A DNA stretch of 64,000 bases from Marinobacter sp. SS21 (GTDB taxonomy: Bacteria > Pseudomonadota > Gammaproteobacteria > Pseudomonadales > Oleiphilaceae), in the NCBI RefSeq assembly GCF_028369065.1, contig NZ_JAQNDA010000001.1, positions 186,001 to 250,000 of the forward strand. The letters are read 5' to 3'. A program made the position numbers and the translations under genes. The notes below the pieces were generated by a model, which worked only from the letters and a program-made list of their open reading frames with translations, was not told the origin of the DNA and searched no databases. Positions within the stretch are counted from its first letter, which is position 1; each line of letters starts with the position of its first letter. Positions 1,854 to 12,900 of the stretch are shown here, one piece after another.

Positions 1854-3016
1854 GACGAGGTGGCTACTACGCCGTTGGCTTGTTGTGCCTTGCGGTCGGG
1901 TTAAGCTCGCCCGCGCTGGCCTGGGAACTGATCGAAGACCGGTTGTTTTTCAATACCTACGGCACTCTTGGGGTTGCCGCCGTTGATGACGATGACGTTG
2001 CCATCGACAATCTGCAGGATCAGGATATCGGTGACGAGCCCTCCGCCGGTTTTGACAGCCGGCTGGGCCTGCAACTGGAATACCGTGTCAACGAGCGCTG
2101 GAACATCACCTGGCAGGGGCTGGCCACCCGCGACGAGGACGACGACTACGAATTGGATACCAAGTGGGCGTACATCGATTTCGACGCTGCGTCCTGGTTG
2201 ACCGTCCGCCTCGGCCGGTTCATCACACCGCTATTCCAGATCTCGGAACAGCGCTACGTGGGCTATAGTCAACCCTGGGCGCGACCGCCGCTGGAGGTCT
2301 ATGGTCTGGAGAACGATTTTGACCACTCCGATGGCCTCTGGTTCGCCTTGAGGCTGCCCACCACCGGCGTTGCCACAACGCTGGATCTGTTCGTCAGCCG
2401 ACATCACTCAGCCGATCTGGATGTCGAGATTGAGCCGATCTACGGGGCCGCATTGAACGTGACGAGGAATAACCTGAACCTGCGCCTGATGCTGGCCAAT
2501 CTTTCCATTGATCTGGATCATTCGGAGCTGGCAGGCCTGGATCAGCTGCTCCAGCAGCCATCGGCGGAACATGAATACCGCTTTGACTCGGACTTTCTGT
2601 ATTACAACCTGGGCTTTCAGTACAACGACCATCGCTGGCTGGCACTGCTGGAATACATACACCTTAACTCCGAAGGCCATTTCTACCCCGAACTGGAGGC
2701 CTTCACCATTACGGTTGGGCGCTACCTCGATGTGTTCCTGCCCTACGCTGTCTATTCGAAGCGCTCCGTTCTGAATACCGAGCCGGAGACCGGGCTGACG
2801 GGCATGGCGGGGGTGGTGGCCAACAGCCTCATTGACGCCAGAAAGTCCGATCAGTCTACCCTGGGGATGGGGCTTCGCTGGGATGTCCTGCCCGGCCTTG
2901 CCGTCAAGGGCCAGTGGGACCATATCCGTATCCCACCCGATAGTCGCGGCGTGTTTGACCGGGACCCCGATGGCCATGTCAATCTGTATACCCTGGTCTT
3001 GGATTGGGCGTTTTGA
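1850..3016 (+). CDS. Outer-membrane beta-barrel (porin-like) protein, exported
   Basis: 388 aa. The start chosen is the ATG at 1850, which overlaps the kinase stop and gives a clear signal peptide: MRRGG, then a hydrophobic core, then a probable cut after SPALA. The mature part is rich in alternating aromatic strands and acidic loops, with a DDDD-containing segment near the N terminus. It closes with LDWAF, a C-terminal aromatic residue typical of BAM substrates. This supports an outer-membrane barrel, but the family could not be named. It overlaps the next gene by one base (TGATG), so it belongs to the same operon as the EAL protein, kinase and PstS-like protein. Confidence 0.75.
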   Translation: MRRGGYYAVGLLCLAVGLSSPALAWELIEDRLFFNTYGTLGVAAVDDDDVAIDNLQDQDIGDEPSAGFDSRLGLQLEYRVNERWNITWQGLATRDEDDDYELDTKWAYIDFDAASWLTVRLGRFITPLFQISEQRYVGYSQPWARPPLEVYGLENDFDHSDGLWFALRLPTTGVATTLDLFVSRHHSADLDVEIEPIYGAALNVTRNNLNLRLMLANLSIDLDHSELAGLDQLLQQPSAEHEYRFDSDFLYYNLGFQYNDHRWLALLEYIHLNSEGHFYPELEAFTITVGRYLDVFLPYAVYSKRSVLNTEPETGLTGMAGVVANSLIDARKSDQSTLGMGLRWDVLPGLAVKGQWDHIRIPPDSRGVFDRDPDGHVNLYTLVLDWAF

Positions 3017-3423
3017 TGAGAAGTCTGGTGATAACGTTGATCGCCCTTTTGATGTCGGGCATGGCGCAGGCCCGGGAGCTGGTGGTGGTGTCGGGCGCCG
3101 ACAGCGCCCTAGTTCAGCTTAGCCGCGAAGAGCTGCAGAAGTTGTATTTTGGCCAGTCGTCGGCGACCGCCGAGGGTCACAGCGTGGTGGTTTACGATCT
3201 GGACAGCACCGAGTATCGAGCTGAGTTCTACCTTACCGCCTTCTCCATGTCGTTGATTCAGATGCGGGCCTACCGTGCCAAGCAGGTATTCACCGGGCGT
3301 GGCCGGCCGCCCCGGCAGCTGGGTGTCGACGACCTGATTGCGCGGCTGCAGCAGGATGGCGGTGCCATTGGCTACCTGCCAGTCGAACTGGCGGAAGGGC
3401 TGACCATCCTGCATCGGTTCTAG
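3016..3423 (+). CDS. Small periplasmic PstS-like (phosphate-binding-like) protein
   Basis: 135 aa from the ATG at 3016, which shares a base with the preceding stop. It has a signal peptide (LIALLMSGMAQA) and then a short PBP-like fold: ELVVVSGADSALVQLSREEL, the segment KLYFGQ, and a late GAIGYLPV. These resemble the small phosphate-ABC substrate-binding-like proteins found next to sensor kinases and porins. It is less than half the length of a transport PstS and no permease or ATPase is nearby. A sensory or accessory role is therefore more likely than transport; this is inference. Confidence 0.7.
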   Translation: MRSLVITLIALLMSGMAQARELVVVSGADSALVQLSREELQKLYFGQSSATAEGHSVVVYDLDSTEYRAEFYLTAFSMSLIQMRAYRAKQVFTGRGRPPRQLGVDDLIARLQQDGGAIGYLPVELAEGLTILHRF

Positions 3424-5684: not shown

Positions 5685-5783
5685 CGCCCTGCTGGGTCGA
5701 TACCGGAGCGCCGGAACTCCGCTGTAACAAGCCGGCCTTCCGGGTGTCTAAGCCACACTGATCGATGTTGTGGAGGTGTGGCC

Positions 5784-6734
5784 ATGGCGGTGCTAATGGG
5801 TTGCCGTTCGCTGGTTGTGGGGCTGTTTGCCCTGATGGTGCTGGGAACACACAGTGCCCTGGCCCAGAGCAAGAACGGATTTGATCTGAGCCGGGCGCTG
5901 ATCCCGGCTGCGGACATCCTGCACGGCGGCCCTCCCCGTGACGGCATCCCAGCCATCGATCAACCCAGATTCGTTGACCCCGAGGCGGCCAGGCTCTGGC
6001 GTCCGGATGACCTGATGCTGACCCTGGAGCTGGGCGAGCACAGCTTCGCTTACCCCATCGGCATCCTCAATTGGCACGAGATCGTCAACCACCGGGTTGG
6101 CGAGTCCGGAGTGCTGATCACCTTCTGTCCGCTGTGTGGCACCGGCATTGGTTTCGACCCGGTGGTGGAAGACCGTTACCTGACGTTCGGCGTATCCGGG
6201 TTGCTCTACAACAGCGACCTGTTGATGTATGACCGCCAGACCGAATCGCTCTGGTCCCAGATTGAGGGGCGGGCCATCGCAGGTCCACTCGCCGGTACCT
6301 TGCTGACCCGCGTGGCGGTGCGTCATGAACTCTGGCGCGGTTGGCAGCAGCGGGTGGGTGATCGCGGCCAGGTATTGTCGACCGACACCGGACATCGGCG
6401 GGATTACCGACGCTCTCCCTACGGCGACTATGACCACTCCGAACGGATCTTTTTTCCGGTGACCCATAGCAGTCGGCGCTTTCACCCCAAAACCTGGGTG
6501 TTGGGGTGGACGCATCAGGGCGAGAGCAAGGCCTGGCCGTTCCCGGAACTGGCCAAAGCCGGCGGTCCGGTTCGCGACCGGGTAGGCGGTCAGGAGGTGC
6601 TGGTGCACTACGATGCGGACGTGCCGAGCGCAAGCCTGACCACCGCCGCCGGCGAGCCGGTGGCGGCCATTCGGGCGTTCTGGTTTGCCTGGTATACCTT
6701 CCACCCGGACACCGCCGTATTCCAGGCACCCTAA
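5784..6734 (+). CDS. Exported DUF3179-domain protein
   Basis: 316 aa. The ATG at 5784 is chosen because a perfect GGAGG lies 7 bases before it; a GTG at 5778 would be only one base from that site. A signal peptide ends near ALAQS. The mature protein has DUF3179 hallmarks: YPIGILNWHEIVN, then ITFCPLCGTGIGF with two cysteines, then SGLLYNSDLLMYDRQTESLW. Function of the family is unknown; the CPLC motif suggests metal or redox chemistry. The next gene encodes an exported cytochrome with massive Cys content, so a shared periplasmic redox or metal role is possible but unproven. Confidence 0.88.
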   Translation: MAVLMGCRSLVVGLFALMVLGTHSALAQSKNGFDLSRALIPAADILHGGPPRDGIPAIDQPRFVDPEAARLWRPDDLMLTLELGEHSFAYPIGILNWHEIVNHRVGESGVLITFCPLCGTGIGFDPVVEDRYLTFGVSGLLYNSDLLMYDRQTESLWSQIEGRAIAGPLAGTLLTRVAVRHELWRGWQQRVGDRGQVLSTDTGHRRDYRRSPYGDYDHSERIFFPVTHSSRRFHPKTWVLGWTHQGESKAWPFPELAKAGGPVRDRVGGQEVLVHYDADVPSASLTTAAGEPVAAIRAFWFAWYTFHPDTAVFQAP

Positions 6735-6832
6735 AACTGCACGCCAGCTGTAATGCTGACGCCGGTGACGTGTCTCTGGTTTGAGCTAACCTAAAAAGGT
6801 TGGTCGAGCTTAACTTCAACCAGGAGAGACCC

Positions 6833-7699
6833 ATGTTCACCTCAAAGCCTTTGAGACGGGCGATCCGGTCCGTTCATGACCATCACCGTGCCACCTGGTG
6901 GTCTGCCGCCCTGATGACCTTGATGTTGGGCGGTGGTGGTGCCGCCCTGGCAGGGTGTACGCCCTGCTCGCCGTGCCGCGGACAATGCCGGGCAAGCCAG
7001 CAGTGCAAGGCGGGCTGCAGCCCTTGTGCGGTGAAAGTCGGCTGTTGTGCCGCCAATCCCTGCGCCAGTAACCCGTGTGCGGCCCGCAATCCCTGCGCCA
7101 CCAGGAACCCCTGTGCGGCCAAGTGCAATCCCTGTTGCAGCGCCTGCAACCCCTGCGCCGCCGGCGGTGCCTGCAGCGCGGCCCCCAACCCTTGCGCGGC
7201 CAAGAAAGTGACCCGCCCCGAGGGCTATGAACCGTACCAGGGCAACCCCTGTGCGCTGATGGCCAGGGGCGAGCAGTTGTTCAACGACACGTCGTTGAGC
7301 TCCAACGGCCTGGCCTGTACCAGCTGCCACAACAACGATGCAGGCTACAACGCAACGTTTGCCAACGCCTACCCGCATTCCGTCGCCATGGCCAAGAACG
7401 TGTTCGGTATGGACGAGGTCCATCTGGATGAAATGGTGCAAATCTGCATGGTTCGGCCCATGGCATCGGAACCCCTGGCGTGGAACAGCGAGGCCCTGGC
7501 GGCGCTGACGGCGTATATGGAAAAGGTCCAGAAGCGTGTGGCGGCGAACCCCTGCGCCCTCAAGAGCGGCGCTTGCGGCGCCTGTAATCCGTGCGATCCC
7601 TGCAATCCGTGCAATCCTTGCGAGGGCAAGAATCCCTGCGCCGGCAAGAACCCCTGTGCGACCAGGGCCCCATCCACCCGGGCCGATACGGCCGCCTGA
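6833..7699 (+). CDS. c-type cytochrome lipoprotein flanked by NPC-type Cys/Pro repeats
   Basis: 288 aa from the ATG at 6833 (site AGGAGA). After a 20-residue basic head comes a hydrophobic stretch ending in a lipobox, LAGC, so Cys42 is probably lipidated. Residues about 42-130 are built from NPCA[AST]-[RK]-type units plus CNPCC and SPC variants. The middle carries one haem site, CTSCH (about residues 162-166), followed by MVRPM and a helix typical of small c-type cytochromes, with a likely Met ligand. A second repeat block near the C terminus includes CNPCDPCNPCNPC. I count 14 NPC triplets. The flanking cysteines could bind Cu, Fe-S or other thiophilic metal; this is inference. The gene forms a pair with the next CDS. 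Confidence 0.85.
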   Translation: MFTSKPLRRAIRSVHDHHRATWWSAALMTLMLGGGGAALAGCTPCSPCRGQCRASQQCKAGCSPCAVKVGCCAANPCASNPCAARNPCATRNPCAAKCNPCCSACNPCAAGGACSAAPNPCAAKKVTRPEGYEPYQGNPCALMARGEQLFNDTSLSSNGLACTSCHNNDAGYNATFANAYPHSVAMAKNVFGMDEVHLDEMVQICMVRPMASEPLAWNSEALAALTAYMEKVQKRVAANPCALKSGACGACNPCDPCNPCNPCEGKNPCAGKNPCATRAPSTRADTAA

Positions 7700-7759
7700 A
7701 AGCATGCCCGCAGCCTCGGCCAGGATCAGGCCGGCGCTGCGGGCATGAGGAGAACCGTG

Positions 7760-8485
7760 ATGTTTGAGCCGGAGATGAACAGCCTGCAGGCCCTGAGCCT
7801 GGAGACGGTGCGCGACTGCCTGGCGGGCGCCGAGGAAATCCAGGAGTGTTACCGGGTGCTCAAGAAAGGCGGGCTGAATGTGGTGGGTGAGGTGCTCAAG
7901 GGCCAGGGCGACTTCTACGAAATGGACCACTACCCCAAGGACGACGTTTTTGACCGGGAATTCCACGCCCAGTACTACTACCATGCCCACCGCGAAGGCC
8001 ACGATGAACATGGCCACTTTCACCTGTTTGTCCGCGACGGCGCCATTGAGGCTGACTGGGTGCCAGTGCTGGGGCCAACCGGTAAGGACCGGGTGGTGCA
8101 CCTGGTGGCCATCGCCATGGATGCCTGGGGCTATCCCCTCGAACTCTTTGCCGTCAATCGCTGGGTCACCGATGAAAGTTGGCTACCGGCGGACCAGGTG
8201 ATTGCCCTACTGGACCGCTTCACCATTGATCACGCCAACCCCAGTTGGCCGGTGAACCGCTGGATCTCTGCCATGGTGCGCTGTTACCGCCCACAAATCG
8301 AAGCCTTGCTGCGGCACCGCGACCGGGTGCTGCTGGCTCAACCCGGCTGCTTGCCGGCGGTGCTGGAGGATCGCGAACTGGAGGTAACCGGCGCCTTGCC
8401 CATTGATCTGGAGTTCTGGCGGGGGATGCTGCTGGAGGAGCTGGCGGCGAGATCCCAACCCACTGCCACCCTGGTTGGTACCTGA
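7760..8485 (+). CDS. Unassigned conserved-looking protein with His/Asp-rich motif, partner of the Cys-repeat cytochrome
   Basis: 241 aa. The ATG at 7760 is preceded by AGGAGA; an ATG at 7745 lies upstream of that site. There is no signal peptide or membrane segment, so it is probably cytoplasmic. The most distinctive region is YYYHAHREGHDEHGHFHLF (about residues 72-90), dense in possible metal ligands. Further on come VVHLVAIAMDAWGYP and FAVNRWVTDE. It may belong to a recently named DUF family (DUF6969 comes to mind, unverified). Position 60 bases after the cytochrome suggests co-transcription and a role in making or handling it, for example metal delivery; this is speculative. Confidence 0.75.
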   Translation: MFEPEMNSLQALSLETVRDCLAGAEEIQECYRVLKKGGLNVVGEVLKGQGDFYEMDHYPKDDVFDREFHAQYYYHAHREGHDEHGHFHLFVRDGAIEADWVPVLGPTGKDRVVHLVAIAMDAWGYPLELFAVNRWVTDESWLPADQVIALLDRFTIDHANPSWPVNRWISAMVRCYRPQIEALLRHRDRVLLAQPGCLPAVLEDRELEVTGALPIDLEFWRGMLLEELAARSQPTATLVGT

Positions 8486-8507
8486 GCCATCCGGGTCGGT
8501 GTCGGGC

Positions 8508-8762
8508 TCAGCCCGGGTTGTCCCCGCTGGCGTTGGCCAGGGCGCGCTGGATTTCGTGGTCCAGGCGCTCGGCGTAAGCCGGTGCCAGCCGCTGGCTGGA
8601 ATGAGCCTCCATCAGCGTGATGCTGTTGCGCAGCTGACCGACAAAGGCCCGGCACCGGCGGCACATCAGCAAGTGCATCTTGATGGACAGCCGTTCACCG
8701 GCCCCCAGCCGATCGTCCAGGTACTCGCTGGCCTTGGTTGCAAGCTCTCGACACATTAGCAT
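8508..8762 (-). CDS. Zinc-finger anti-sigma factor (ZAS/zf-HC2 type)
   Basis: 84 aa. The ATG at 8762 has AGGAG eight bases upstream and overlaps the end of the sigma factor gene; an ATG at 8756 is an alternative. It has the ZAS zinc motif HLLMCRRC (H-x3-C-x2-C) with an N-terminal Cys (MLMCREL). There is no transmembrane segment, so it is a soluble cytoplasmic anti-sigma. ZAS proteins hold their cognate ECF sigma inactive and often release it on oxidation or metal stress. Overlap with the sigma gene fixes the partner. Confidence 0.88.
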   Translation of the reverse strand: MLMCRELATKASEYLDDRLGAGERLSIKMHLLMCRRCRAFVGQLRNSITLMEAHSSQRLAPAYAERLDHEIQRALANASGDNPG

Positions 8763-9376
8763 TCGCCGGTCTCCTGGAACTGTTCCACCATCAGAAAGAT
8801 TTTCTGCCGCGCCCGATGGAGCAGCACTCTCAGATTGGATGCACTGACGTCGAGAATGTTACACACCTCATCGGAACGACGCTGGTGGGCCTCGTACAGC
8901 AGCAGTGCCGAGCGCTGGTTCTCCGGCAGGTGGGCCAGGTGTTTGTCCAGGCACTCGCTGAGCGCGCCATTCTCCAGCAAAGCCTCGGCGGACTCGACGG
9001 TGCTGATCCGGGGCGGGACCGCCCAACGCCCGTTGGGTTTGAAGCGGGCCGCCAGCGCCGGGTCGAGGGCGTCGGCGAAATCCATGGTGACTTCCCGTCC
9101 CTGTTTGCGTAGCAGGTTCTTGGCCCGATTGGCCACGATGCGGTGCAGCCAGGTTTTCAGCGAGGCCCGGCCCTCAAACTGCCGGATGGCGTCGACCACG
9201 CTCACCCAGCTGTCCTGTACGATGTCTTCGGCACTGCTAGGGTCAGTGTAATAGCGGGCCACCGCCAGCATACCGGGGGTGTAGGTTCTCACGGCCTCAT
9301 GAAAGGCGTCGGCGTGGCCGGCCTGCAGGCGATGGAGCAGCTGGGATTCATCCTGGTGCTGTACGGCAATGCTCAT
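8756..9376 (-). CDS. ECF-type RNA polymerase sigma factor
   Basis: 206 aa from the ATG at 9376 (AGGAC upstream). An in-frame ATG at 9418 would add 14 residues and has a worse site. Region 2 reads AVARYYTDPSSAEDIVQDSWVS-like (AEDIVQDSW), followed by FEGRASLKTWLHRIVANRAKN, the standard region 2.3-2.4 of ECF factors. Region 4 has LPENQRSALLLYE and the recognition-helix stretch SASNLRVLLHRARQK. The anti-sigma overlaps its 3' end. Likely targets are the divergent TVP38-FAD oxidoreductase operon or the convergent cytochrome pair, but no promoter could be matched by eye. Confidence 0.92.
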   Translation of the reverse strand: MSIAVQHQDESQLLHRLQAGHADAFHEAVRTYTPGMLAVARYYTDPSSAEDIVQDSWVSVVDAIRQFEGRASLKTWLHRIVANRAKNLLRKQGREVTMDFADALDPALAARFKPNGRWAVPPRISTVESAEALLENGALSECLDKHLAHLPENQRSALLLYEAHQRRSDEVCNILDVSASNLRVLLHRARQKIFLMVEQFQETGEC

Positions 9377-9627
9377 GGTCACGGGTCCTGGCGCTGTTCG
9401 ATCGCTGGGTGAGTCCATCGGAACGGGGAAAAGTTCCTGCTGATGGCGGAATCTGGCAGTGACGCCTTGCCGTTCGTGACGCTCCCACCTAAGGCCAGAC
9501 AGCACAAGGAGTTTTTTTAGCTTTCTTGAGGCATTTGTTATAAATATGTGACCGTTGGCCTGTAACATTCTGGATTATGGACTGTCTATGGCAGCAGTCA
9601 AATCGCCACAAGGAATCCATTATCCCC

Positions 9628-11829
9628 ATGAATCGGAAAAAGCTTTTCCTGATCGCCGTGATCGCCACCTTGGTGCTGACCTTTATCGGACTGGACGGCC
9701 ACCAGTTACTGACCCTGGCCAATCTGCAGCAGCACCAGGCCAGCCTGAATCAGTGGATCGCCGTCAACACCCTGGTGGCAGTGGGTGGCTTCGTGCTGAT
9801 CTACATCGCGGTCACCGCGCTGTCGTTGCCGGGGGCGGCGATCCTGACCCTGGCCGGGGGCGCGTTTTTCGGCAACCTGCAGGGCTTGCTGGCGGTGTCG
9901 CTGGCCTCAACCGTGGGTGCCTCGCTGGCTTTCCTGGCCGCCCGCTTCCTGTTCCGGGACAGCCTGCGCAAGCGCTACGCCGAGACCATCCGCCGGATGG
10001 ATCGGGGCATCGACAAGGACGGCGCCTTCTACCTGGCGACCTTGCGCCTGGTGCCGGTGTTCCCGTTCTTCCTGATCAACCTGGCCATGGGCCTCACCGG
10101 CATGAAGCTGCGCACCTACGCGTTGGTGAGCTGGCTGGCGATGCTGCCCGGCACCTTTGTCTATGTAAACGCCGGCACCCAATTGGCGCAGATCCGCGCG
10201 GTGGGCGATATCGTCTCCGCCCAGGTGCTCGGTGCCTTTGCCCTGCTCGGGCTGTTCCCGCTGATCGCCAAGTTCGTGCTGGGCTTTGTCCGTCGCCGCC
10301 GGGTCTATCGCGGTTTCCGCAAGCCCAAGCGGTTTGACTACAACCTGCTGGTGATCGGGGCCGGTTCAGGCGGACTGGTGTCGGCCTACATCGCCGCGGC
10401 GGTGAAGGCGAAGGTGGCGCTGATCGAGCGCGACCGGATGGGCGGTGACTGCCTCAATACCGGCTGTGTCCCGTCCAAGGCCCTGATCAAGTCGGCCAAG
10501 GCCGCCGATACCCTGCGCCATGCCCAGCGCTATGGCCTGGACTCGGTGCCGGTGACCGGCTCGTTTACCAACGTGATGGCACGGGTGAAGCGGATCATCA
10601 CCGAGGTGGAGCCCCACGATTCCCCCGAGCGTTACCGCAGCCTGGGCGTTGACTGCATCGCCGGCGACGCCCATTTCGTATCCCCCTGGGAGGTGGAGGT
10701 CCGCAGCAAGGATGGCCGCTCCCAGCGACTCAGCGCCCGCAGCATCATCATCGCCACCGGTGGCAAGCCGGCGCTGCCGCCGATACCCGGCCTCGAGCAG
10801 ATGGCGCCGCTGACGTCGGACACGCTGTGGGAACTGGACGAACAGCCGGGCCGGTTGCTGATCATCGGCGGTGGCCCGATCGGCTGCGAACTGGCCCAGG
10901 CCTTCAACCGGCTCGGCACTCAGGTGATCCAGGTGCAGCGGGGCCCACGGTTGCTGCCGAAGGAAGACGCCGATGTAGCCCAGCTGGTCCAGGCGCAGTT
11001 CCTCGCCGAGGGCGTGGACCTGCGCTTGGAACATCAACCCCAGAGGTTTGTGCTGGAAGACGGCGAGAAGGTGCTCTATTGCGACCATCAGGGAGCGCAG
11101 GTGCGGATTCCCTTTAACCGGGTACTGGTGGCGGTGGGTCGGATTGGCAACACCGCCGGGCTGGGACTGGATGCCTTGGGTATCCAGCCGGAGGCCAACG
11201 GCACCGTGCCGGTTGAGGAAGATCTCAGCGTGCGCTTCCCCAATGTCTTTGCCTGTGGCGATGTGGCCGGGCCGTATCAGTTTACCCATGCCGCCGCCCA
11301 CCAGGCCTGGTACGCCGCGGTCAACGGCCTGTTTGGCCAATTCAAGCGGTTCCGGGCGGACTATCGGGTCATGCCCTGGGTCACCTTTACCGCACCGGAG
11401 GTGGCCAGGGTCGGGCTGAGCGAGGCGGAAGCCCAGGCCAAAGGGGTCGCCTACGAGGTCACTCGTTACGGTATCGACGATCTGGATCGGGCCATCGCCG
11501 AAAGTGAGGCCCATGGCTTCATCAAGGTGCTGACCGCGCCGGGCAAGGACAAGATTCTCGGTGCCGTGGTGGTCGGCGAGCGGGGGGGCGAGATCCTGGC
11601 CGAATTCACCCTGGCGATGAAGCACGGGCTGGGGCTGAACAAGATCCTCGGCACGATCCACCCCTACCCGACCTGGAACGAGGCGGCCAAGTACGCCGCT
11701 GGTGAATGGAAACGGGCCCATGCCCCCGAGGCGGTGCTCAAGCTGTTGGAAAAGTTGCATCGCTGGCGGCGGGGCAAGGGCGCAGCGCCGCAACCCCGGG
11801 TTGCGCGGCAGCAATGGTCCGGAGAGTGA
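9628..11829 (+). CDS. Fusion: TVP38/TMEM64 membrane domain plus FAD pyridine nucleotide-disulfide oxidoreductase
   Basis: 733 aa from the ATG at 9628 (AAGGA upstream; an in-frame ATG at 9577 lacks one). Residues about 1-230 form a DedA-like TVP38 membrane domain with several helices and the conserved ALSLPGAAILTLAGGAFFG region. From about residue 238 a complete class I flavin disulfide reductase follows: YNLLVIGAGSGG, the redox pair GGDCLNTGCVPSK, NAD site LLIIGGGPIGCELAQ, and FAD site VFACGDVAG. The C-terminal active-site segment IHPYPTWNE keeps His and Glu. Such fusions are known. The substrate is not: a membrane-tethered mercuric- or dihydrolipoyl-type reductase is likely. It heads the plus-strand cluster with a radical SAM gene, symporter and phosphoesterase. 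Confidence 0.93.
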   Translation: MNRKKLFLIAVIATLVLTFIGLDGHQLLTLANLQQHQASLNQWIAVNTLVAVGGFVLIYIAVTALSLPGAAILTLAGGAFFGNLQGLLAVSLASTVGASLAFLAARFLFRDSLRKRYAETIRRMDRGIDKDGAFYLATLRLVPVFPFFLINLAMGLTGMKLRTYALVSWLAMLPGTFVYVNAGTQLAQIRAVGDIVSAQVLGAFALLGLFPLIAKFVLGFVRRRRVYRGFRKPKRFDYNLLVIGAGSGGLVSAYIAAAVKAKVALIERDRMGGDCLNTGCVPSKALIKSAKAADTLRHAQRYGLDSVPVTGSFTNVMARVKRIITEVEPHDSPERYRSLGVDCIAGDAHFVSPWEVEVRSKDGRSQRLSARSIIIATGGKPALPPIPGLEQMAPLTSDTLWELDEQPGRLLIIGGGPIGCELAQAFNRLGTQVIQVQRGPRLLPKEDADVAQLVQAQFLAEGVDLRLEHQPQRFVLEDGEKVLYCDHQGAQVRIPFNRVLVAVGRIGNTAGLGLDALGIQPEANGTVPVEEDLSVRFPNVFACGDVAGPYQFTHAAAHQAWYAAVNGLFGQFKRFRADYRVMPWVTFTAPEVARVGLSEAEAQAKGVAYEVTRYGIDDLDRAIAESEAHGFIKVLTAPGKDKILGAVVVGERGGEILAEFTLAMKHGLGLNKILGTIHPYPTWNEAAKYAAGEWKRAHAPEAVLKLLEKLHRWRRGKGAAPQPRVARQQWSGE

Positions 11830-11934
11830 AACCAGGGCAGTACCGGACAGTGAGAGCAGACCTGTGAGGCCGAGGGCCCAACGATCGGGGCGTGATGGCC
11901 CCGGCCGACAGAACAACGACGATTGGGAGAGCGT

Positions 11935-12900
11935 ATGCCGTTTAACGAAAGCCGTGCCCGGCGAATACCGGCGGTGGAGGTGGTCAGTCCGCGGGCGGTG
12001 GACAGCTGGACCCACACCCGTGCCGGTGAACCCCGTGGTTATATCGATGCCGACCAGTTGCAGGAGCTGTGGATCCATACCGGCACCGCCTGCAACCTGT
12101 CCTGTCCGTTCTGCCTGGAAGGCTCCCATCCCGGCGATCATCGGCTCGCCGCCATGAAGCTGGCCGACGTGACGCCGTTTATCCAGGAAGCCGTGGAGCT
12201 GGGGGTGGCGCAGTTCTCCTTCACCGGTGGCGAACCCTTCGTGATCCGCGATTTTGTCAACATTCTCGACCACGCCAGCCGACACCGGCCCTGCTTCGTG
12301 CTGACCAACGCCACCGAGCCGCTGTGGAAACGGCGCCACCAGGTCTCGCCTTTGTTGGCCAATCCCCATCCGATTCATTTTCGGGTCAGCCTGGACTACC
12401 CGGATGCCCACCGCCATGACCAGGGTCGGGGCGAGGGCAGCTTCGCCAAGGCGCTGGACGGTATCCGTTGGCTCCATGAGCAGGGCTTCGTGGTGTCCAT
12501 TGCCCGGCAGACCGATCCGGGCGAGGTTGCAACCGAGGTGGAGGACAGCTTCCGCGCCATCTTCCGTGGCCATGGTATCCCCGACACCCTGGCGTTCACT
12601 TCATTTCCCGACTTGGGCACCCCGGGTTCCGAAGATGGCAGCCCGGAAATCACCGAAACCTGCATGGCGAAGTACCCGACCCGGCAAAGCCGGGCCCACT
12701 TCATGTGCACCTACACCCGCATGCTGGTGAAGCGGGGCGATCGGGTGCGGGTGTACGCCTGCACCCTGGTGGACGACGATCCCCAGTATGATCTCGGCGG
12801 TACCCTCAGGGAGAGTATGTCCAAACGCATCATGCTGCGGCATCACCGCTGCTTCGCCTGCTACCGCTACGGGGCGAGCTGCGCCGAGGCCAAGGCCTGA
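11935..12900 (+). CDS. Radical SAM protein with C-terminal Cys-rich (SPASM-like) tail
   Basis: 321 aa; the ATG at 11935 follows GGGAGA at four bases. The radical SAM cluster motif is TACNLSCPFC (Cys53, Cys57, Cys60), and FSFTGGEPF is the usual SAM-binding GGE segment. The last third carries extra cysteines: MCTYTR, YACTLVDDDP, and RCFACYRYGASC at the end, which fits one or two auxiliary Fe-S clusters. The product is unknown. The sequence around the cluster (CPFCLEGSHPGD) did not match a named subfamily I know. Co-directional neighbours are a flavin disulfide reductase, a symporter and a phosphoesterase-like protein. Confidence 0.88.
   Translation: MPFNESRARRIPAVEVVSPRAVDSWTHTRAGEPRGYIDADQLQELWIHTGTACNLSCPFCLEGSHPGDHRLAAMKLADVTPFIQEAVELGVAQFSFTGGEPFVIRDFVNILDHASRHRPCFVLTNATEPLWKRRHQVSPLLANPHPIHFRVSLDYPDAHRHDQGRGEGSFAKALDGIRWLHEQGFVVSIARQTDPGEVATEVEDSFRAIFRGHGIPDTLAFTSFPDLGTPGSEDGSPEITETCMAKYPTRQSRAHFMCTYTRMLVKRGDRVRVYACTLVDDDPQYDLGGTLRESMSKRIMLRHHRCFACYRYGASCAEAKA

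Follow-up and report, generated by a model that had tools for sequence, protein, structure and literature searches.

DUF6969, a predicted metalloprotein, is paired with exported cysteine-repeat chains, one of them fused to a SoxA/TsdA-type haem domain in Marinobacter

In the haem protein TsdA, an S-thiosulfonate is formed on the haem-ligating Cys, and an Arg described as invariant in TsdA and SoxA binds the substrate (PMC4423706, in excerpt). A related idea is found in the sulfur carrier SoxYZ, whose exported Cys accepts sulfur from a SoxA-type haem (same source, likewise in excerpt). Bufferins, in turn, are copper-chelating, Cys-containing chains that leave by the Sec route and have an iron enzyme of their own in the cytosol (PMC12452194, in excerpt), and CdeC, a protein of the Clostridioides difficile exosporium, carries a 6-NPC repeat and self-assembles in a disulfide-dependent manner (PMC7677010, in excerpt). 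Here we describe a two-gene cassette in a window of 64,000 nucleotides from Marinobacter sp. SS21 (contig NZ_JAQNDA010000001.1, positions 186,001 to 250,000), in which an exported cytochrome with Cys-Pro repeats is followed by a gene of the DUF6969 family. The pairing of DUF6969 with such repeats is real, selected and absent from the literature searched, in which no paper named DUF6969, PF22308 or any of three NPC repeat strings and no title concerned this system; it was found via the cytochrome and is not defined by it.

The cassette occupies positions 6735..8507 of the window on the + strand. The cytochrome gene (6833..7699, +) runs from an ATG at 6833, with AGGAGA five bases 5' of it, to a stop at 7699 and encodes 288 aa. 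Sixty bases past this stop, the gene for the 241-aa DUF6969 protein (7760..8485, +) begins, for which the sequence, through a supporting AGGAG, favours the ATG at 7760 over a start at 7745. A scan for promoters and terminators returned a number of sites not above that in shuffled sequences. Upstream of the cassette lies the gene for a DUF3179 protein (5778-6734) with a CPLCG motif; 3' of it, on the opposite strand, are a zf-HC2 anti-sigma gene and an ECF sigma factor gene, which stand divergent from a VTT-domain/FAD-oxidoreductase fusion (8508-11829 for the whole arrangement). Farther on, 11923-12900 encodes an Rv1681-like radical SAM protein that scores under that model's cut-off. The nearest loci of the window genome belong to Marinobacter.

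The initial annotation was right about the make-up of the first product, which contains 33 Cys, 14 NPC triplets and a single CxxCH (CTSCH, aa 162-166, 7316-7330), with two Cys-rich blocks around the haem domain that together hold 29 of the 33 Cys: an N-terminal one (aa 42-125, 6956..7207), mostly disordered by prediction, and a C-terminal one that starts at aa 237 (aa 237-280, 7541..7672) and is missing from several relatives. Neither chance nor DNA slippage accounts for the repeats: 2000 shuffles of aa 41-288 gave on average 0.29 and at most 3 NPC triplets against the 14 observed, these 14 are encoded by 8 different nine-base spellings, and across five sequence pairs the blocks have a pN/pS of 0.00-0.35 at a pS of 0.27-0.84. 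The variety of spellings and the low pN/pS indicate that the repeats are maintained at the protein level, that is, by the measure of these sequences, under purifying selection. In the nearest relative, 25 of the 29 repeat Cys are conserved, as aligned. A wider sample of 80 relative loci yielded 79 readable ORFs (35 NPC-type, 41 GEAEG-type and 3 untyped), and among the 35 NPC-type cytochromes the number of Cys ranges from 8 to 34 and that of NPC triplets from 4 to 20, while exact positions vary. With 21 sequences as input, AlphaFold2 gave scores of 89-98 to the ten-residue blocks between aa 121 and 240, which span the haem domain, and scores mostly below 50 to the repeats. The NPC blocks may be pictured as flexible multi-thiol arms on an exported protein.

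Export itself is read from the N-terminus (aa 1-41, 6833..6955), in which a lipobox-like LAGC had led to the description of the cytochrome as a lipoprotein. This identity is poorly supported by the relatives: by script, a lipobox-like motif is present in only 4 of the 35 NPC-type relatives, two of these four being copies of one locus in the same strain, and none was seen by eye in L022, L024 and L025, while L008, L012 and L017-L021 have no Cys at this position at all. Since relatives rarely possess the motif and several are without the Cys, the N-terminus is more safely read as a Sec signal with AxA-type cleavage.

The haem domain (aa 126-236, 7208..7540) is of the SoxA/TsdA kind. The protein matches the SoxA-TsdA_cyt-c profile PF21342 at 3.6e-9 (36.9 bits against a cut-off of 27), and a Foldseek search of the PDB with the domain model returned TsdA or SoxA in all of its first 12 rows, at E values of 0.005-0.07 and none below 0.001. 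With VIA-align, SoxA (1h31) reached a Z of 9.0 (rmsd 2.4, 87 residues aligned) and TsdA a Z of 8.0-8.2 (101-104 aligned), whereas hydrazine synthase scored 6.7 and a MauG-like protein 5.5, as did one SoxA entry (3oa8). Cys205 (7445..7447), which aligns with the haem-ligating Cys of SoxA and of TsdA haem 1, is invariant in 21 of 21 sequences, and by its modelled fold the domain is a Cys-ligated cytochrome, the ligation being predicted. Equally constant (21/21) is Met201 (7433-7435), which occupies the position of the invariant Arg (Arg119 in TsdA, four residues before the Cys). Because the substrate-binding Arg is thus replaced, the sequence makes thiosulfate an unlikely substrate. A thiosulfate dehydrogenase proper was likewise rejected as an identity for this protein, which has one CxxCH as against the two haems of TsdA and is missing the Arg. 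The cytochrome is the sole PF21342 match in the window's genome, where no second gene of the SoxA/TsdA family was found, and neither SoxX nor TsdB was among its nine annotated window neighbours.

The GEAEG-type relatives share this haem domain, bear GEAEG repeats and usually contain three Cys. Haem homologues without the NPC repeats and with a free number of Cys, which the initial annotation had set against a dedicated system, therefore do exist (41 of the 79 readable ORFs, and 8 to 34 Cys within the NPC type); for the haem domain the objection holds, and the Cys arms are dispensable for its basic role, because the GEAEG relatives retain it without them. One could accordingly regard the haem domain as the functional core, the repeats as interchangeable spacers and DUF6969 as linked yet independent, a reading that draws on these very relatives and that we consider scarcely probable: DUF6969 adjoins 29 of the 35 NPC-type genes, none of the 41 GEAEG-type genes and one untyped gene, it accompanies repeats in proteins that have no haem (stand-alone peptides and the NPC lipoproteins described below), and the repeats are under purifying selection. 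The same variation in repeat number and individual Cys, together with the predicted disorder of the blocks, the ability of GEAEG repeats to stand in for them and the precedent of CdeC, would suit a structural cross-linker, in which NPC disulfide networks anchor the haem domain in an envelope assembly and DUF6969 keeps the thiols separate until export. We judge this improbable, as many loci fuse or link the repeats to redox and sulfur proteins.

Both flavours are also present, in many of the same loci, as short stand-alone repeat peptides with predicted export, whose N-termini resemble those of the same-flavour cytochrome (by eye in L021, L022 and several GEAEG loci). Furthermore, the GEAEG type seems to have a neighbour of its own, since a DinB-family protein is encoded near 25 of the 41 GEAEG-type loci and near 0 of the 35 NPC-type loci, an assignment made by Pfam match in L047 and L035, by BLAST for the remaining members of the cluster and without a Pfam match at 0.001 in L062. 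In loci of the range L027-L075 (for instance L035:6625-8345), a GEAEG-repeat exported peptide, a DinB-family protein and a GEAEG-repeat cytochrome form a parallel system. DUF3179 is found near many GEAEG-type loci as well, and the arrangement of window positions 8508-11829 is retained in many Marinobacter loci of both flavours. The genes that flank the cassette are nearly adjacent in most GEAEG-type Marinobacter loci holding both: their matches are 923-982 bp apart in 10 of 11 such loci (1421 in the other) and 1247 in the untyped L046, as against 2588-3131 in six NPC-type loci, two of them from one strain, and 2730 between the gene starts in the window. Because this spacing differs by flavour, the NPC cytochrome and DUF6969 appear to have been gained or lost as a unit at a shared Marinobacter locus. 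Near other NPC-type Marinobacter loci, DUF3179 was not found. In one strain of Marinobacter mobilis the locus is present twice, on different contigs and with the same protein matches (L001, L002).

The second gene of the cassette matches DUF6969 (PF22308) at 1.9e-80 (269.7 bits against a cut-off of 27). As the initial annotation had noted, its product contains a run of His and acidic residues, HAHREGHDEHGHFH, and has no hydrophobic start, so that it looks cytoplasmic by sequence. Across 66 sequences, down to 26% identity, H75, H77, E83, H84, H86, H88, H114, N133 and R187 are retained in every one and H57 in 65; H75 to H88 form a cluster encoded at 7982..8023 (+), with H57 and H114 outside this stretch. 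No Cys is invariant, the commonest being C30 (50/66). In the structural model (pLDDT 92, pTM 0.90), H75/H77 and H84/H86/H88 lie on adjacent strands of one hairpin and could share a face, a common face that we derive from strand positions in the model and not from coordinates. A metal centre is likely on these sequence grounds, and we refer to DUF6969 as a predicted metalloprotein. No PDB structure resembled the model (best Foldseek E 0.83, best VIA Z 2.9), comparison with viral models gave a best E of 0.23, and a sequence search of solved structures had no credible match (best E 0.062). From the model the fold may be a new one, weak matches being no proof of novelty.

Within the genus the association of DUF6969 with NPC repeats is tight. 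In a sample of 120 genomes, 30 have DUF6969, and matches to the NPC part of the window protein occur in these same 30; each of the 34 DUF6969 matches has such an NPC match no more than 0.6 kb away, the NPC nature of these matches being judged from the query range and the sequence read in nine loci and the window. The partner co-occurrence that the initial annotation had asked about is thus borne out, both here and beside 29 of the 35 NPC-type cytochromes. Several of the genus NPC proteins are not cytochromes: they are lipoprotein-like, have a PTP-like domain (PF04273, PF22741) and adjoin DUF6969, as in L202, L204, L207, L208 and L210 (PTP/BLH-phosphatase-like). Three further NPC-PTP proteins have no neighbouring DUF6969, which is encoded elsewhere in those genomes; outside the five adjoining loci, NPC-repeat lipoprotein-like proteins with this domain are seen in L203, L209 and L212. 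Similarly, for the six NPC-type cytochrome loci with no DUF6969 nearby, the family is found elsewhere in the genome for four and was not found for two (L031, L057). Among GEAEG genomes, 20 of the 41 were tested and one has DUF6969; that genome also has an NPC-PTP gene. In L134 (213-1304, -), NPC repeats adjoining DUF6969 are fused to a Cytochrome P460-like domain (E 1.8e-4, under the Pfam cut-off), and in a single genome, at L205, both genes are short and broken-looking (DUF6969 127 aa, NPC protein 147 aa). Because DUF6969 also stands beside haem-less peptides and NPC-PTP proteins and beside 0 of 41 GEAEG-type genes, its dedication is to the repeats and not to the haem; of the dedicated two-gene system that had been proposed, the pairing of DUF6969 with Cys repeats stands, and the haem is no part of it.

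Beyond the genus, DUF6969 was detected in 26 of 274 class genomes, 20 of 398 phylum genomes and 0 of 14 controls. Of the 46 loci inspected, 44 were scored, and in 28 of them the adjacency rule recorded a same-strand gene for a Cys-repeat export at most 1.5 kb away, against 2 of 160 control ORFs, one of which is itself that locus's NPC gene; the rule was tuned on these same loci and replaced a first one that missed the window's own gene and gave 26/44 against 14/160, and the scored loci are not independent, because several come from the same genus. By eye, six more were positive (L112, cut by a contig end; L122; L124, with two Cys only; L128; L130; L172), while 10 of the 44 had no Cys-repeat neighbour even by eye, including L160, where the contig ends 175 bases upstream. 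The chains beside DUF6969 vary widely, with NPC, NPCAPSARGG, NPCSLDED, SPCGLD, CCGCCG and CAAEG repeats. DUF6969 and the Cys-repeat chain are very probably a functional pair, as judged from these sequences, and their recurrence across many bacteria points to an undescribed system preparing or using such chains. In L155, L156 and L158, DUF6969 is beside an FGE-sulfatase-like protein and a Cys-repeat peptide was not found.

What the chains might carry is suggested by their neighbours. Among 98 hand-picked neighbours of DUF6969, Pfam returned Sulf_transp 12 times and rhodanese 10 times, the next commonest family appearing 3 times; in 45 DUF6969 loci, tblastn found Sulf_transp-like genes in 11, rhodanese-like genes in 16 and the two together in 10. 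These sulfur genes are restricted to some lineages, chiefly the one with SPC-type peptides, in which L124, L127, L128 and L172 share the order Sulf_transp, SPC-type peptide, DUF6969, rhodanese. The SPC-repeat peptide of these four loci has an IDHTRH motif past a hydrophobic stretch, and the double rhodanese has a signal-like N-terminus. A Sulf_transp gene is also present in 9 of the 35 NPC-type cytochrome loci. In another bacterium, YeeE-like proteins are reported to import sulfur that is then oxidised (PMC11582611, in excerpt). Sulf_transp was not found in the window's own genome, and the sulfur reading therefore leans on relatives and on the kind of haem. An alternative is a metal buffer, in which the NPC arms hold Cu(I) or some other thiophilic metal as bufferins do and DUF6969 is the enabling enzyme or chaperone. 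Besides the bufferin precedent, it is supported by one DUF6969 locus that also has MNIO and DoxX genes and by Met-rich or Met/His-rich NPC proteins in two genomes without DUF6969 (L236, L241). Yet the 25 commonest of the 80 families in the 98 neighbours, where sulfur genes are far ahead, include no copper gene, and the MNIO enzyme (PF05114) has 0 matches in the window's genome, so that we consider the metal buffer unlikely, if less so than the cross-linker. The role in copper or other thiophilic-metal handling put forward earlier likewise obtains no direct support from the neighbourhood, in which Sulf_transp and rhodanese recur most, and the haem is of the SoxA/TsdA kind. In L111 (9251-11728), the MNIO enzyme gene and the DoxX-domain gene come soon after an NPC-peptide/DUF6969 pair.

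NPC proteins are also encountered without DUF6969. When the 274 genomes of the class sample were queried with an NPC peptide, 17 gave a match; 12 of these were counted as true NPC and five dropped as chance matches. Eight of the 12 have DUF6969 and four do not (G057, G061, G076, G193), an overlap far above chance (Fisher test, p 8e-7, uncorrected for shared ancestry). Met or His is more abundant in the peptides of G061 and G193, and a five-haem cytochrome gene adjoins the peptides of G193 and G057. A multihaem cytochrome gene 3' of NPC peptides is seen in L262 and L263, with five CxxCH each, and also in L044, L057 and L078, the one of L057 matching Cytochrome_C554 and MtrC-like profiles.

Taken together, we tentatively regard DUF6969 as a metalloprotein of the cytosol whose task is to prepare exported multi-thiol chains, with the handling of sulfane sulfur as the probable purpose. 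DUF6969 would be the dedicated cytosolic partner of the NPC blocks and would depend on a metal to act on the chain of Cys repeats, ahead of Sec export or in its course; modification or loading of the cysteines is the likeliest form of such action. Once in the periplasm, the arms would bear a load bound to their thiols, for which sulfane sulfur is the likeliest candidate, and in the window protein the fused Cys-ligated haem would oxidise or reduce the load bound to them. The parts of this model differ in strength. The pairing with exported Cys-repeat chains, the SoxA/TsdA-type fold with the place of its Cys ligand, the invariant His set and the selection on the repeats are seen in sequence and model, while metal binding by DUF6969, its effect on the chain and the sulfur load are inferred. 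That DUF6969 acts on the chain itself is probable, and action before export is favoured because the layout, a maturation enzyme with varied precursors, would be that of MNIO and the bufferins; that it does so by covalent maturation falls a little short of an even chance. A load of sulfur rather than metal we place at about even, since the neighbours in some lineages and the kind of haem speak for sulfur, and the analogy with bufferins for metal. More doubtfully, DUF6969 might be the first of a class of metalloenzymes that mature peptides and have a novel fold. Tandem Cys repeats would be the portable tag on which it acts, free as peptides or joined to a PTP-like lipoprotein, a P460-like cytochrome or a SoxA-like haem domain; its product would be a periplasmic multi-thiol sulfur carrier, and the GEAEG repeats with the DinB-family protein would be a second pair of tag and partner. 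A scattered, unnamed family hereby gains a testable role and a likely substrate, and it may be a new class of peptide-modifying enzymes distinct from the MNIO family. Moreover, repeat-rich Cys proteins, which are easily dismissed as low complexity, become linked to periplasmic sulfur or metal chemistry, in growable bacteria in which both genes could be deleted.

The closest known counterparts of this system share some of its traits. The MNIO-modified bufferins, which are RiPPs with a Sec signal, likewise place an exported Cys-rich chain beside a cytosolic protein, and here the conserved His set suggests a metal site. In contrast to them, the partner is DUF6969 instead of MNIO/DUF2063 and its model has no PDB match, the Cys chain consists of tandem repeats that can be fused to other domains, and its modification is putative. 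CdeC resembles the NPC proteins in having NPC repeats in an extracytoplasmic Cys-rich protein, whereas it belongs to the spore coat, any kinship of the repeats being putative. With the SoxA/TsdA family, the cytochrome has in common the fold of the haem domain and the position of the Cys that is the second haem ligand, but it is a single-haem protein with Met for Arg, and the arms added in it and its relatives are Cys or GEAEG repeats. The comparison with SoxYZ is one of idea: an exported thiol would receive sulfur in reach of a SoxA-type haem, here with many Cys per chain, borne by the haem protein itself.
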